Of a stretch of 44,150 nt of DNA, positions 5,322-24,592 are shown piece by piece. The stretch spans positions 1-44,150 of the forward strand of contig JAETUM010000022.1 in assembly GCA_021768625.1 (NCBI GenBank), in the 5' to 3' direction. Position 1 is the first letter of the stretch; every line of letters begins with the position of its first letter. Made by a program: the position numbers and the translations under genes. The notes beneath the pieces are model-generated. The model was not told the DNA's origin, did no database searches, and saw only the letters and a list, made by a program, of their open reading frames with translations. Origin of the DNA: Candidatus Stoquefichus sp. GTDB taxonomy: Bacteria; Bacillota_I; Bacilli_A; Erysipelotrichales; Coprobacillaceae.

Positions 5322-5915
5322 ATGCAAAATATTGATCAAATATTTCTCTATATGAAAGATGAAATTGAAAGAGAAGCGAGTAATGAAGAAAAAGCTATTT
5401 TAGATGAAGTAAAAGCTTTGGAAGAAGATATTTATGAGTCTATGAAAGCAGAAGCGAAAAGAGATGCAGATTTAAAAATGAAACAAGAAATTGAAGAAAT
5501 GACTTCTAATGCTTCTACTGAAATTTCTGAAAGTCATATTGAAAGAACAAAGAAATTAATTGAAAAAAGAGATGGATATGTGAAAACTATCTTTGATGAA
5601 GTACGTGAAAAATTAGTTGCTTTTACAGATAGTAAGGATTATGTATCTTTTATGCATGAAAAGATTAAAAAAATTGCTAATAACTTTAATGAAGATTCTA
5701 TTATGTATATAGCAAAAAAGGATTTATCAATGAAAGATGAATTGATTAAGGTTTTTGGTAAGAATATTAAAGTTGAAGTTGATGAAGATATTACTATTGG
5801 TGGTTTTATTGTTGAGAATAAAGATTTACACCTTGTAGTAGATGAAACATTAGATTTTGCTTTAAATAGTCAAAAAGAGTGGTTTAATAAAAATTCTGGA
5901 TTAATTATAAAATAA
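5322..5915 (+). CDS. ntpE: V-type ATPase subunit E (peripheral stalk)
   Basis: The 197-residue protein has an N-terminal coiled coil rich in Glu/Lys/Ala (about 1-100) and a globular C-terminal domain with a GGFIVENKDL motif (about 160-170), as in subunit E of V/A-ATPases. It forms the peripheral stalk with the G/H subunit encoded first in the operon. An in-frame GTG lies at 5316, but AGGAG (5308-5312) sits only 3 nt from it and 9 nt from ATG at 5322, so I place the start at 5322. Length is in the usual range. Confidence 0.93.
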   Translation: MQNIDQIFLYMKDEIEREASNEEKAILDEVKALEEDIYESMKAEAKRDADLKMKQEIEEMTSNASTEISESHIERTKKLIEKRDGYVKTIFDEVREKLVAFTDSKDYVSFMHEKIKKIANNFNEDSIMYIAKKDLSMKDELIKVFGKNIKVEVDEDITIGGFIVENKDLHLVVDETLDFALNSQKEWFNKNSGLIIK

Positions 5916-5934
5916 AGACAAGGGGGATTAAAAA

Positions 5935-7686
5935 ATGACTGAAAATGTAATTTATTCAATCAATGGTCCCGTTGTTACAGTCAAAGATACTGATGCCTTT
6001 TCAATGTTAGAAATGGTATATGTTGGAAATGCAAGACTGATTGGTGAAGTTATCTCAATCAAGAAGGAATTTACAACTATCCAAGTCTATGAAACGACAA
6101 CAGGATTAAAACCAGGAGAACCTGTTTATCCAACAGGACAACCTATTTCTGTAACTCTTGGACCTGGTATTTTAAGAAATATTTTTGATGGGATTGAAAG
6201 ACCCCTAGAAGAAATCGCAAAAGAATCTGGATCATTTATTCCTACAGGTAGTCATGTTGATCCACTTGATAAGGAAAAATTATGGGATGTTACTGTGGTT
6301 GCTCAAGTAGGGGATCAAGTTGTAGGTGGCGATGTTTATGCAACAATTCCAGAAACTGATTTGATTACACATAAGTGTATGGTATCTCCATATACAAAAG
6401 GAAAAGTTGTTGAAGTTGCACCATCAGGTCAATATAAAATTGATGATGTCATTATGAAAATTGAAACTGAAAAGGGGCAAATCGTTGAGTGTACATTAAC
6501 TCAAAAATGGCCTATTAAACAACCTAGACCAGTATCAAAACGTTTACCAATTTCAATGCCACTTGTTACAGGACAACGTGTTATTGATACATTATTTCCA
6601 ATAGCTAAAGGTGGAACTGCAGCTATTCCAGGTGGATTTGGAACTGGAAAAACAATGACTCAACACCAATTAGCAAAATGGTGTGATGCTGATATTATCG
6701 TTTATGTAGGTTGTGGAGAACGTGGTAACGAAATGACACAAGTTCTTGAAGAATTTAGAGAGTTAATTGACCCTAAATCAAATAAACCTTTAACAGATAG
6801 AACAGTTTTAATTGCTAATACATCAAATATGCCAGTTGCTGCTCGTGAAGCTTCTATTTATACTGGAGTTACACTTGCTGAATATTATAGGGATATGGGA
6901 TATCATGTCGCTATTATGGCTGATTCTACTTCTCGTTGGGCAGAGGCATTACGTGAGATTTCTGGACGTTTGGAAGAAATGCCTGCTGAAGAAGGTTTCC
7001 CAGCATATTTACCATCACGTTTATCACAATTCTATGAACGTGCAGGTTATATGGATAACTTAAATGGAACAAAAGGATCAGTAACAATCATTGGAGCAGT
7101 ATCTCCACAAGGATCTGACTTTTCTGAACCAGTTACACAAAATACAAAACGTTTTGTGCGTACGTTCTGGGCATTAGATAAAGCTTTAGCTTATGCACGT
7201 CACTACTTTGCGATTAACTGGAATCAAAGCTATAGTGAATATGTTCCTGATTTAGCAAGATGGTTTAATAAAAATGTAGATTCTAAATTTTTAAGAGATC
7301 GTCAAGAATTATCAAGTATTCTTGCTGAAGAAACAAAATTAATGGAAATTGTAAAATTAATGGGATCTGATGTTTTACCAGATGATCAAAAATTAATTAT
7401 TGAAATAGCAAAAGTTGTTCGTGTAGGATACTTGCAACAAAATGCATTCCATCCTGATGATACTTACGTACCATTAGAAAAACAATTAAAAATGATGGAA
7501 GTTATTTTATATTTATATAAACGTGGTAAAGAGGTTATTAATACTGGAAAACCAATTCGTTTAATTTTAGAAACAGGCATTTTTGATAAAGTTATTAAAA
7601 TGAAATATGATGTACCAAATAAGAATTTAGAATTATTTGATGAATATTATAAAGATATTGATGCAGCAGTTGCATCTATTGACTAA
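5935..7686 (+). CDS. ntpA: V-type ATPase catalytic subunit A
   Basis: The 583-residue catalytic subunit hydrolyses or makes ATP in the A3B3 head. The P-loop is GGFGTGKT (residues 233-240), the catalytic segment GERGNEM follows at about 262, and the domain order is N-terminal barrel, non-homologous insert (about 110-190), nucleotide-binding domain and helical C-terminus. [19 protein letters not shown] is the family signature. GGGGGA lies 8 nt before ATG. Length matches bacterial A subunits (about 580-600). It lies directly before subunit B. Confidence 0.98.
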
Positions 7687-21383: not shown

Positions 21384-21392
21384 TGGTATAAT
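21384..21392 (+). promoter_or_regulatory. Extended -10 promoter of the agr-like operon
   Basis: TGG-TATAAT (21384-21392) lies 62 bp before the agrB-like start. Just downstream, ACCGTTGAA (21400-21408) resembles a LytTR-regulator half site, but no clear second repeat was found. Confidence 0.45.
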
Positions 21393-21453
21393 TTATTTGA
21401 CCGTTGAAAGTAAAATATAAAAGATAAACTATTGACGATGAGAAGGTGAGAAA

Positions 21454-21993
21454 ATGCAAACTTTTTGTGAGTTGATTGCTAATTATTGTGTAAAATATAA
21501 AGTCATTGATGCAGAAGGTGCTAATGCTCTTAGGTTTGGTATAGAACTGATTGTGACTCAAGTTATGACTATAGGAGCAATTCTTTTAATAGGTATAATG
21601 ATAAGTGATATAAAACAATGTCTTCTTTTTTGTATATGTTTTGTTAGTTCAAGAAAACTTTTTGAAGGATATCATGCAAGTACATTCTTAAGATGTTTTG
21701 TATTGACAATTTCATTTTACTTATTTGTAGAAATGGTTATAAAGCTTGAAATACCATATGATTTGTTAAATGTTGTGTCATGTATAATGATATATCAATC
21801 ATTGAAAAAGCATGATGAAAAAAGAAATAAGATAATTTTATTTACATTGTTTTATAGTGTATGTATTATTGGTTTTTACTTGCTTGAAAAGACACAGTAT
21901 ATTCATTTATATTCTCTAACTTTATTTCTAGTTCTTTGTTTAGGGAATGTTACGTTTGGAGGGGAAGAACATAAACATAGCAGTTGTGGATGA
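21454..21993 (+). CDS. agrB: AgrB-like peptide-processing membrane protease
   Basis: AgrB cleaves the AgrD pro-peptide and cyclises it. In this 179-residue protein the catalytic pair is intact: His74 in EGYHAST and Cys81 in FLRCF, the same seven-residue spacing as H77/C84 of S. aureus AgrB. About five or six hydrophobic helices follow (36-56, 58-66, 84-104, 106-122, 127-145, 150-170). The first segment is amphipathic. GAAGGTG precedes ATG at the usual distance. The 3' end overlaps the regulator gene by 47 nt. The matching pro-peptide is not directly downstream but after the kinase gene. Confidence 0.92.
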   Translation: MQTFCELIANYCVKYKVIDAEGANALRFGIELIVTQVMTIGAILLIGIMISDIKQCLLFCICFVSSRKLFEGYHASTFLRCFVLTISFYLFVEMVIKLEIPYDLLNVVSCIMIYQSLKKHDEKRNKIILFTLFYSVCIIGFYLLEKTQYIHLYSLTLFLVLCLGNVTFGGEEHKHSSCG

Positions 21994-22645
21994 TCAAGAA
22001 GTATATCATGCTATTGTGAAAGATTATTTCCAAGACATGAAAGAAGATATAAATATTTATTGTTTTGATAGTGTTCAAAAACTAGAAGAAAGTAAGGTTT
22101 GTTTTCATATAGTGTTATTGGATATTGATATGCCTGATATCAATGGAATTGATTATGCAAGGGAACATATAGAAAAAAATATTATATTTGTCAGTGCACA
22201 TAGTTCTTATATTAAACAAGCATTTGGGCCAAATGTCTATGCTTTTATTGAAAAAACAGATAGTAAAGAAATGTTTCAAAGACAGATAATAGATGTTATG
22301 AATCGAATAGGTGCACAAAAGATTGTAAATTTAAAAGTAGGAAATGAATATCATAAAGTATATATCAAAGATATTATTTATGTTCAATATATTAGAAGAA
22401 AAACATTATGTGTGAAAATGAAAACGAAGGAAATTGAAGTTTATGGTTATAGTATTAAAGATTTTGCAAATGAATTAGGTAATCATTTTGTTTATATTGA
22501 TAGAGATACAATCTGTAATATTGATTATATTTTCGGAATTGTTAAGGATAAACTTATTTTAAAAGATACAAATCATCAATTAAGAATAAGCAGTAGAAGA
22601 AGACAAAATGTAAAGAGAGCTTATTTGGAGAATATTAAACAATGA
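21947..22645 (+). CDS. LytTR-family response regulator (AgrA-like)
   Basis: The protein has an N-terminal receiver domain (acidic VVDDQE near 14-19, phospho-acceptor Asp59 in VLLDIDMPDING, and the FIEKTDS lysine near 105) and a C-terminal LytTR DNA-binding domain (about 125-230; KVYIKDIIYVQYIRR, VYIDRDTICNIDYI). This is the AgrA/ComE architecture. The only canonical start is ATG at 21947, which overlaps agrB by 47 nt and has a weak ribosome site. A GGAGGGG at 21958-21964 suggests initiation a few codons later on a non-canonical codon. The stop overlaps the kinase start by 4 nt (ATGA). Confidence 0.9.
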   Translation: MLRLEGKNINIAVVDDQEVYHAIVKDYFQDMKEDINIYCFDSVQKLEESKVCFHIVLLDIDMPDINGIDYAREHIEKNIIFVSAHSSYIKQAFGPNVYAFIEKTDSKEMFQRQIIDVMNRIGAQKIVNLKVGNEYHKVYIKDIIYVQYIRRKTLCVKMKTKEIEVYGYSIKDFANELGNHFVYIDRDTICNIDYIFGIVKDKLILKDTNHQLRISSRRRQNVKRAYLENIKQ

Positions 22646-23889
22646 TGATTTTATACGAATATTTGCTTTGTTTTATATATGTATCAAGTTTATTTTTTTG
22701 CTGCTATCCTTATTTGAAAATTAAAAAAACGACATTATCACTATTTATATTTTTGCTTATTTATGCATTTGTAGACTTTGTTATTACAGGAAACTATATT
22801 ATAGATTTACAACAATATTTTATTGCCAACCTATTTGTAATAATTAGTGATTATATACTTATCAGTCTTTATCAAAGAAAATTATCATTTTATATATTGT
22901 TTTATACATCTTTATATTTTTGCATTTATACTTTGTTTGTTAGTGTTTTTATGTTTGTTTGTACATATTTTGGAATCACTGTTATTGATATCTATAAAAC
23001 ATTATTTTTAAGAATTATATTTGCTTGTACTTATGCAATAGGAACTATACTTATTTATAAGGGATTAGAAAGAATAAAAATTATTCCAAAATCAGAGATT
23101 GTTATTAGAAGTCCATGGTTATTTAATTTTATAAATATTATTGTTATAGTGGCTTATCTTGTTTTCTTTGGAATGAAATTAATTAATCTAGATAGTATTT
23201 TAATGCGAATTATTTTTTTACTTTTTGTATGTTTATGGTTTGTTCTTTTATATCTATCTAGCAGATCAATATCTTTAATGTTAGAGAATAATAAATTAGA
23301 GATTGTCAATATTTATCAAGAAAGTACAGAGCAATTGATAAATCATTACAAAAAGGAAATTGAAGAAACAAGAAAAATAAAACATGACATGAAAGGACAT
23401 TTAGCAATTATACAGTCAATGCATGAATTAAGTGAGATTAAAGAATATGTTCATAGCATTTTAACAGATATTGAAGATATTTCAGATCATAGATTTTATA
23501 CAGGAAATAATGCAATAGATATTATTTTAATGTTGAAAGAAAAACAATATTCATATATTCACTATAAATATAATATAAATTTTAAAGAAATACATATAGA
23601 TATAAAAGATTTAGCATCAGTATTATTCAATCTTATAGACAATGCCTCTCAAAATATTTCATCTCATGATAGAAATGTCTATATATCCATCATACAATCA
23701 GAAGCCAGTTTATCAATTATGGTTATTAATACTGTAGAGAAACCCTTAAATCTTATTTCAAAGAAAGGGAAAGGACATGGTTATGGTTTGACGATAGTAG
23801 AAAGCATTGCAGAGAAGTATAATGGAGATTTCAGTATAAATTGTTATAATAACCAAGTCATAGCTCAGGCGATTCTTGAAAATGTTTAG
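22642..23889 (+). CDS. GHKL sensor histidine kinase (AgrC-like)
   Basis: The 415-residue kinase has about six or seven N-terminal transmembrane helices (5-215), as expected for a peptide-sensing AgrC-type receptor, then a dimerisation helix with phospho-acceptor His248 in IKHDMKGHLAII. The GHKL ATPase domain follows with the N-box LFNLIDNASQNI (about 330-342) and G-box KGKGHGYGLTIVES (about 373-386). It overlaps the regulator gene by 4 nt. It probably senses the cyclic peptide encoded at 23996 and phosphorylates the LytTR regulator. Confidence 0.9.
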   Translation: MMILYEYLLCFIYVSSLFFCCYPYLKIKKTTLSLFIFLLIYAFVDFVITGNYIIDLQQYFIANLFVIISDYILISLYQRKLSFYILFYTSLYFCIYTLFVSVFMFVCTYFGITVIDIYKTLFLRIIFACTYAIGTILIYKGLERIKIIPKSEIVIRSPWLFNFINIIVIVAYLVFFGMKLINLDSILMRIIFLLFVCLWFVLLYLSSRSISLMLENNKLEIVNIYQESTEQLINHYKKEIEETRKIKHDMKGHLAIIQSMHELSEIKEYVHSILTDIEDISDHRFYTGNNAIDIILMLKEKQYSYIHYKYNINFKEIHIDIKDLASVLFNLIDNASQNISSHDRNVYISIIQSEASLSIMVINTVEKPLNLISKKGKGHGYGLTIVESIAEKYNGDFSINCYNNQVIAQAILENV

Positions 23890-23918
23890 TAACTATAGCA
23901 TTCAGTGATTTGATTGTC

Positions 23919-23928
23919 TACGTTCGAT
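23919..23928 (+). promoter_or_regulatory. Possible LytTR half-site before the agrD-like gene
   Basis: TACGTTCGAT resembles the ACnGTTnA(G/T) half-site of LytTR regulators; a looser copy (TTCAGTGAT) lies 19 bp upstream. TATAAA boxes follow at about 23951 and 23964. If real, this would be a separate feedback promoter for the pheromone gene. Evidence is weak. Confidence 0.25.
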
Positions 23929-23995
23929 GACCCTCTTATATTTTTATATTGTATAAATGTTATTATAAATGTATGAATGAAAGGAGGTATGTGTC

Positions 23996-24094
23996 ATGAA
24001 GTTAATAAATAAAATTGCTAATACATTGATTTGTCAGGTGAAAAAGTCAAATTATAATTGTTCACCATTAGGTTTTTATAAACCTAAAAAATAA
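23996..24094 (+). CDS. agrD: AgrD-like cyclic autoinducer pro-peptide
   Basis: This 32-residue ORF has a very strong ribosome site (AAAGGAGGT ending 6 nt before ATG). Its plan is AgrD-like: an amphipathic N-terminal helix (about 1-17, MKLINKIANTLICQVKK), then a core with one Cys (C22) followed by small and hydrophobic residues, NYNCSPLGF, then YKPKK. A Y-x-P-K segment directly after the ring is common in AgrD of Listeria and clostridia (YEPK, YQPK). The predicted product is a thiolactone from Cys22 to Phe27 or Gly26, made by the AgrB-like protein encoded 2 kb upstream. The tail is short and basic, not acidic. It is too short for most gene finders. Confidence 0.82.
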   Translation: MKLINKIANTLICQVKKSNYNCSPLGFYKPKK

Positions 24095-24121
24095 TAAATG
24101 ATAGATGAGGGGAATCATATA

Positions 24122-24592
24122 TTGAAGTTTATTATAAAAAATAAAAAGGCAGTATTATGTATATTTATAATTGTTGTTATTGGATACTTAATTTATAAAA
24201 ATCAATTAAATAAATCATATGTGTTGCAAAAAGAAAGTTTTGAAACCTATCTATACTACCATAAAGTTAATGATACAAAATTGACTAATGGAAAAGATCT
24301 TTATATTTTTGTTGTTTCTACAAAATGTAAAGATGATAGTATTGATATAAACAAAATAAATGTACAATTAAGATTAAAAGATAATTATAAAGAATATTCT
24401 GCTTATGAAATTAATGAGGCTTATGCTCAAAAGTATTTTGAAAATCATGTTGAACAAAAAGGGAAAAAAATATATAGATATTATATCTTTGAAAAGCTTT
24501 GGGGAAAAGAGGATTTTACATCTGCTAAAATAGATATTTCGAAAGATAAAATGGTTTTAGAAGATAATGTTGATATTTTTATAGAAATATAA
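24122..24592 (+). CDS. Hypothetical membrane-anchored protein downstream of agrD
   Basis: I do not recognise this protein of about 156 residues. It has a single N-terminal membrane anchor (AVLCIFIIVVIGYLIY) and a soluble domain rich in Lys, Asp and Tyr, probably outside the membrane. The TTG at 24122 has GAGGGG 9 nt upstream. The in-frame ATG at 24098 lacks a ribosome site and starts 4 nt after the agrD stop, so TTG is preferred. It lies in the same stretch as agrD and may be co-transcribed. The N-terminal plan is shared with the next gene, but their sequences are not obviously related. Confidence 0.6.
   Translation: MKFIIKNKKAVLCIFIIVVIGYLIYKNQLNKSYVLQKESFETYLYYHKVNDTKLTNGKDLYIFVVSTKCKDDSIDINKINVQLRLKDNYKEYSAYEINEAYAQKYFENHVEQKGKKIYRYYIFEKLWGKEDFTSAKIDISKDKMVLEDNVDIFIEI

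Follow-up and report, generated by a model that had tools for sequence, protein, structure and literature searches.

The window analysed here, a stretch of 44,150 nucleotides of Candidatus Stoquefichus sp. DNA, probably encodes an agr-type system in which agrB, agrA and agrC are expressed from one unit, agrD is autoinduced as a second unit, and the signal is a five-residue ring, most likely a serine lactone. The genes lie in the order agrB-agrA-agrC-agrD, with agrA and agrC standing between agrB and agrD, and the system is one of known parts in a new arrangement.

The three genes ahead of agrD overlap head to tail on the forward strand, on which the other window features given below also lie. 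The agrB gene (21,454..21,993) encodes a membrane protease/cyclase of 179 aa that matched Pfam AgrB with an E-value of 1.6e-20 (73.7 bits versus a cut-off of 23), and its H74 and C81 were unchanged across an alignment of eight proteins (the window protein and seven other AgrBs); no AgrB relatives were found among PDB sequences. The agrA-like response regulator (21,947..22,645; receiver and LytTR domain) scored above the cut-off of Pfam Response_reg, while Pfam LytTR found no match in the window protein and matched six of its seven orthologues. Its AlphaFold model (pLDDT 86.5) matched full-length ComE and the DNA-bound LytTR domain of AgrA in Foldseek, with TM values of 0.81-0.85 on the domain, and on this model we assign the protein as a LytTR response regulator (AgrA) despite the missing Pfam LytTR match. 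If the regulator starts at the ATG at 21,947, it overlaps agrB by 47 nt; that ATG is the only one present and lies upstream of a GGAGGGG at about 21,957-21,963, behind which ATA codons stand at the place where homologues start. The agrC-like GHKL sensor kinase gene (22,642..23,889) overlaps the regulator gene by 4 nt, and its product matched HATPase_c_5 above the cut-off (E 5.2e-12); seven orthologues show no variation at H248 or in the N box. The original prediction of an agr-like locus with AgrB, a LytTR regulator and a GHKL kinase was borne out by Pfam, the alignments and AlphaFold/Foldseek, and the sequence agreed with its description of an intact AgrB H74/C81 pair, of overlapping B, A and C genes and of agrD as the last gene with a strong ribosome site of its own. 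The same genome carries two more agrB genes, each adjoined by a conventional agrD.

The agrD-like gene (23,996..24,094) follows the kinase gene after a gap of 106 bp, is preceded by a strong ribosome-binding site (AAAGGAGGT, 23,980..23,988, 7 nt before the ATG) and encodes a putative pheromone precursor of 32 aa (MKLINKIANTLICQVKKSNYNCSPLGFYKPKK). The curated AgrD model TIGR04223 gave it 13.9 bits, under the cut-off of 19, in a match spanning most of the model, and its tail past the presumed cleavage site is just YKPKK, short and basic; both points weigh against our preferred explanation. Relatives of the peptide are present in three more species of the family, namely G009 (66% identical), Longibaculum muris DSM 29487 (G028; 56%) and G036 (about 47-50%), all sharing with it the core C-S-P-x-x-[FY]-Y-[KR]-P-K-K, and the peptide profile returned E-values of 1e-14 to 1e-19 for its seven members. 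The open reading frame at 23,996 is therefore conserved, and a search of the 700 bp around the window agrB gave no other AgrD candidate, so neither of the observations that would have spoken against the original prediction was made. The A1/A2 peptide profiles, run against about 395 genomes of the class, matched only the genome itself, L. muris and, weakly, G385 (beside agrB); their remaining weak matches lay inside long open reading frames or had no tie to agrB. A DNA pattern search of 84,980 genomes matched L. muris and one Erysipelotrichaceae MAG, together with an Alistipes match that is apparently due to chance, and the pattern had no match in viral contigs.

The predicted macrocycle is S23-P-L-G-F27 (24,062..24,076). 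Across ten related peptides that we aligned, Ser23, Tyr28 and Pro30 were invariant, and all ten share the layout of a nucleophile and four residues before Y-x-P, which in the window reads S-P-L-G-F before YKPKK. The peptides of relatives with another gene order that align with the window peptide read N-Y-S-P-G-G-x-Y-K-P, N-V-S-P-H-N-F-Y-K-P-K-K, L-S-L-W-N-F-Y-K-P-K-R and Y-S-L-W-D-F-Y-T-P-K-R. We also surveyed every small open reading frame near an AgrB in the examined loci with a pattern that leaves position -5 from Y-[KQE]-P free, and this position was Ser or Cys in all 14 AgrDs of the family (Ser in 13, Cys in one). The Listeria AIP precursor runs on behind its ring as Y-E-P-K. With that ring being C-F-M-F-V (PMC4916163), the ring-closing residue thus stands at -5 from the Tyr. 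Since Ser23 is invariant and at -5 and Cys22 is variable, we predict a serine lactone with Cys22 outside the ring. Rings closed by Ser rather than Cys are known from Enterococcus faecalis (fsrBDCA, whose product is GBAP) and from the agr system of Staphylococcus pseudintermedius; the GBAP ring likewise begins with S-P, but comprises nine residues instead of the predicted five, and the gene order differs (PMC12312760).

A thiolactone closed by Cys22, with the six residues C-S-P-L-G-F in an otherwise identical system, had been implied by the original prediction and is the best of the alternatives, although we consider it rather improbable. All four members of the B-A-C-D/A-C-D group keep Cys22 in their peptides, and a six-residue thiolactone is known in Clostridium acetobutylicum (PMC12312760). 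Against this, the other six of the ten related peptides have Tyr, Val or Leu at that position, whereas the adjacent Ser occurs in every one of them and occupies the usual ring-closing position. The window signal is thus most likely, judging from these alignments, the five-residue lactone S-P-L-G-F rather than a Cys thiolactone. Thr was seen at -5 in two further AgrDs outside the AgrB filter of the survey. The agrB-adjacent AgrD candidates at L049:5914-6048 and L027:1949-2083 carry T-W-I-W-M before YEP, with Thr at the ring-closing position, and are possibly threonine lactones.

The gene order of the window recurs in a relative, the first locus of G036 having B-A-C-D intact. G009 has A-C-D with agrB absent in front, and L. 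muris has B-A-C on one contig, with agrB reduced to a remnant (about 40 codons, then TGA) and the kinase gene followed by one for a transposase; the L. muris peptide gene is on a separate contig, close to insertion-sequence remnants and ahead of RiPP maturation genes. In a kinase tree, the window, L. muris, G009 and the first G036 locus grouped together (support 87/91), and a solid A-C-B-D group stood separately (100/100). This order, A-C-B-D, was found in three loci of one genus (the second locus of G036, G035 and G041), where agrD overlaps the end of agrB, while two loci of a neighbouring family (G385 and G551) are ordered C-B-D, and in G549 and G297 a similar peptide is encoded some 480 bp past agrB. 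The kinases within the window group are about 60-73% different, so the B-A-C-D arrangement is probably old, and because the peptide is kept in three further species and the order is intact in G036, we regard it as a lineage trait and no accident. To describe the order only as unusual misses the A-C-B-D relatives and the constant regulated promoter behind the kinase gene described below.

In L. muris (L043:2486-4869 and L050:4344-6460), the agrD-like gene with its LytTR repeat precedes an acyl-carrier-like gene, which is followed by genes for a small peptide (MKKKLVKPTKSTNNSVVLYGEGNNKCS) and for a TIGR04066/subtilase-like maturation protein; the arrangement suggests a RiPP cluster under quorum control.

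These loci also bear on a second alternative, in which the peptide, of a bacteriocin-like or some other small kind, is under the control of B-A-C and AgrB acts on a different substrate. Of the four genomes that carry the peptide, two have no intact agrB at the locus and keep A, C and D, which weighs against our preferred explanation, and the L. muris gene ahead of a RiPP maturation cluster and the score under the AgrD cut-off point the same way. We nevertheless hold this alternative to be unlikely, as relatives of the peptide adjoin or overlap relatives of the window agrB in five genomes (G036, G035, G041, G385 and G551), its Y-K-P-K motif and the nucleophile at -5 fit an AgrD, and agrB has no other candidate partner nearby.

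The proposal that agrD could be controlled separately is supported by a LytTR-type promoter that appears specific to it. Between the kinase gene and agrD lie two LytTR-type half-sites, GCATTCAGTG (23,898..23,907) and ACGTTCGATG (23,920..23,929), with 12 bp between them and a period of 22 bp, followed 31 bp after the second by a -10 element, TATTAT with an upstream TG (23,961..23,966). The first half-site is imperfect (6/10), which weighs against the promoter assignment. In G009 the pair is a perfect repeat of ACGTTCGTTG with a period of 21 bp, and in L. muris it is ACATTTGATG/ACGCTCGATG, likewise at 21 bp; G035, G041 and the second locus of G036 have a comparable pair (CCGTTCGATC and similar, 21-bp period) between the kinase gene and agrB. 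The motif was first spotted by eye, so the tests of the repeat are post hoc, and each leave-one-out score used half-sites of the remaining loci only. In five of the six loci the pair reached p 0.0005 or better (p 0.0005 in the window; L042 and L043 are also among the five), and scores were low upstream of agrB or agrA operons. The sixth locus, L046, gave a leave-one-out p of 0.60, a consensus p of 0.022 and a -10 at 40 bp, whereas the spacing from repeat to -10 was 31 bp in four and 30 bp in one of the other five loci (the window, at 31 bp, L042, L043, L047 and L048). The AgrA-type consensus alone was not significant in the window (p 0.30), being too loose in AT-rich DNA.

Over both strands of the window, the agrD repeat ranked second of all pairs. 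The 2.92-Mb genome was scanned by half-site pattern searches: ACGTTCGWTG had a single match, the second half-site, compared to six for a reversed control pattern, and allowing one mismatch gave 68 places, about 30 of which were examined. Among 32 near-matches in 30 loci of the genome, only the agrD site combined a partner repeat with a suitably spaced -10. In the four other loci that share the arrangement, it precedes agrD or agrB-agrD. In the first G036 locus (L044), the half-site seen in the window is absent, which again weighs against our explanation. Upstream of agrD there (L044:6145-6232) lies another direct repeat, TAAGGAGGTAT/TGAGGAGGTGT, with a period of 21 bp, which may represent either a LytTR site that has diverged or a pair of ribosome sites. 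G009 carries degenerate duplicates of the agrD promoter region and start (L042:2500-2640, 5880-6114 and 7300-7420), which adjoin genes for small membrane proteins of 70 aa.

That agrD is instead transcribed by read-through from the kinase gene, with B-A-C-D as one operon and the repeat and -10 as chance features of AT-rich DNA, is quite unlikely: the genes are all co-directional with a gap of 106 bp, no terminator was found and a generic promoter scan did no better than shuffles, but the repeat and -10 recur at 30-31 bp in five diverged loci, the half-site is unique in the genome and the L. muris unit, isolated from A-C, has a repeat and promoter of its own. Because the repeat and -10 precede agrD and not agrB in the window, recur in four other loci and include a genome-unique half-site, separate control of agrD is supported, most likely as autoinduction of agrD alone. 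The constant feature of the clade appears to be a regulator-type promoter immediately after the kinase gene, which would drive agrB-agrD in the A-C-B-D loci and, in the window and its kin, agrD without agrB, so that the pheromone gene, and probably the genes for exported proteins too, would be the autoinduced part. Directly behind agrD (24,098..24,592), a gene for a 164-aa protein is likely co-transcribed with it; the product had no family match and is predicted from an N-terminal hydrophobic stretch to be exported or membrane-anchored.

Compared to other agr systems, the window resembles the staphylococcal agrBDCA locus (P2/P3) in its AgrB, GHKL kinase and LytTR regulator and in tandem repeats near -60 of the activated promoter: the AgrA repeats of Staphylococcus aureus P2/P3 are centred there (PMC4227749), and with the -10 following the repeat by 30-31 bp, so is the window pair relative to its predicted start. 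It differs from that locus in its B-A-C-D order, in a recognisable site that precedes agrD and not agrB, in having no visible RNAIII or divergent unit, in the short basic tail of AgrD and in the predicted Ser lactone. Reported orders include agrBDCA, agrBD with agrCA, agrD1B1, agrB2D2C2A2 and fsrBDCA (PMC12312760) as well as agrACDB (PMC3754575). Order and operon splitting thus vary, as in agrACDB (agr2) of Clostridioides difficile and agrBD/agrCA of C. acetobutylicum, and adjacency of agrD and agrB is typical but not required; in these two, agrD adjoins agrB, whereas agrA and agrC separate them in the window (PMC3754575, PMC12312760). A further comparison is with the A-C-B-D loci of the family, which have related AgrB and AgrD proteins and share the repeat-promoter that follows the kinase gene, differing in that this promoter would drive agrB and agrD together. 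A literature search of incomplete coverage returned no papers on AgrD in Erysipelotrichia or on an agrD-only promoter of this kind.

From the computed genes, their order and conservation, the conserved Ser and the geometry of repeat and promoter, we infer the processing, ring chemistry, phosphorelay, activation and downstream operon of the system as follows. Export and sensing (agrB-agrA-agrC) would be expressed from a single promoter that has no recognisable LytTR site, and agrD would head a second transcription unit. AgrB would cut AgrD before Y28 and close the five-residue ring, most likely as the Ser23-Phe27 lactone; the exported peptide would activate the GHKL kinase, leading to phosphorylation of the LytTR regulator, which would bind the tandem repeat (23,898-23,929) and activate the agrD promoter. 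As it is this promoter that the regulator would activate, the feedback loop would be confined to agrD and the genes behind it. More tentatively, it is possible that processing and sensing are constitutive and that agrD and the exported-protein genes are the sole or main target of the regulator, that the signal, a Ser lactone, carries beside its ring an exocyclic Cys and might rearrange into a thiolactone or a disulfide, and that lineages which lost agrB at the locus process the precursor with another AgrB or use it for eavesdropping.

The loops of agr systems normally amplify processing, signal, sensor and regulator jointly. The window would represent a natural system that amplifies the signal gene only, and with its relatives that would amplify agrB-agrD, the effect of feedback wiring on the switch could be tested. 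For a gut family of the Erysipelotrichales, our analysis predicts lactone signals.
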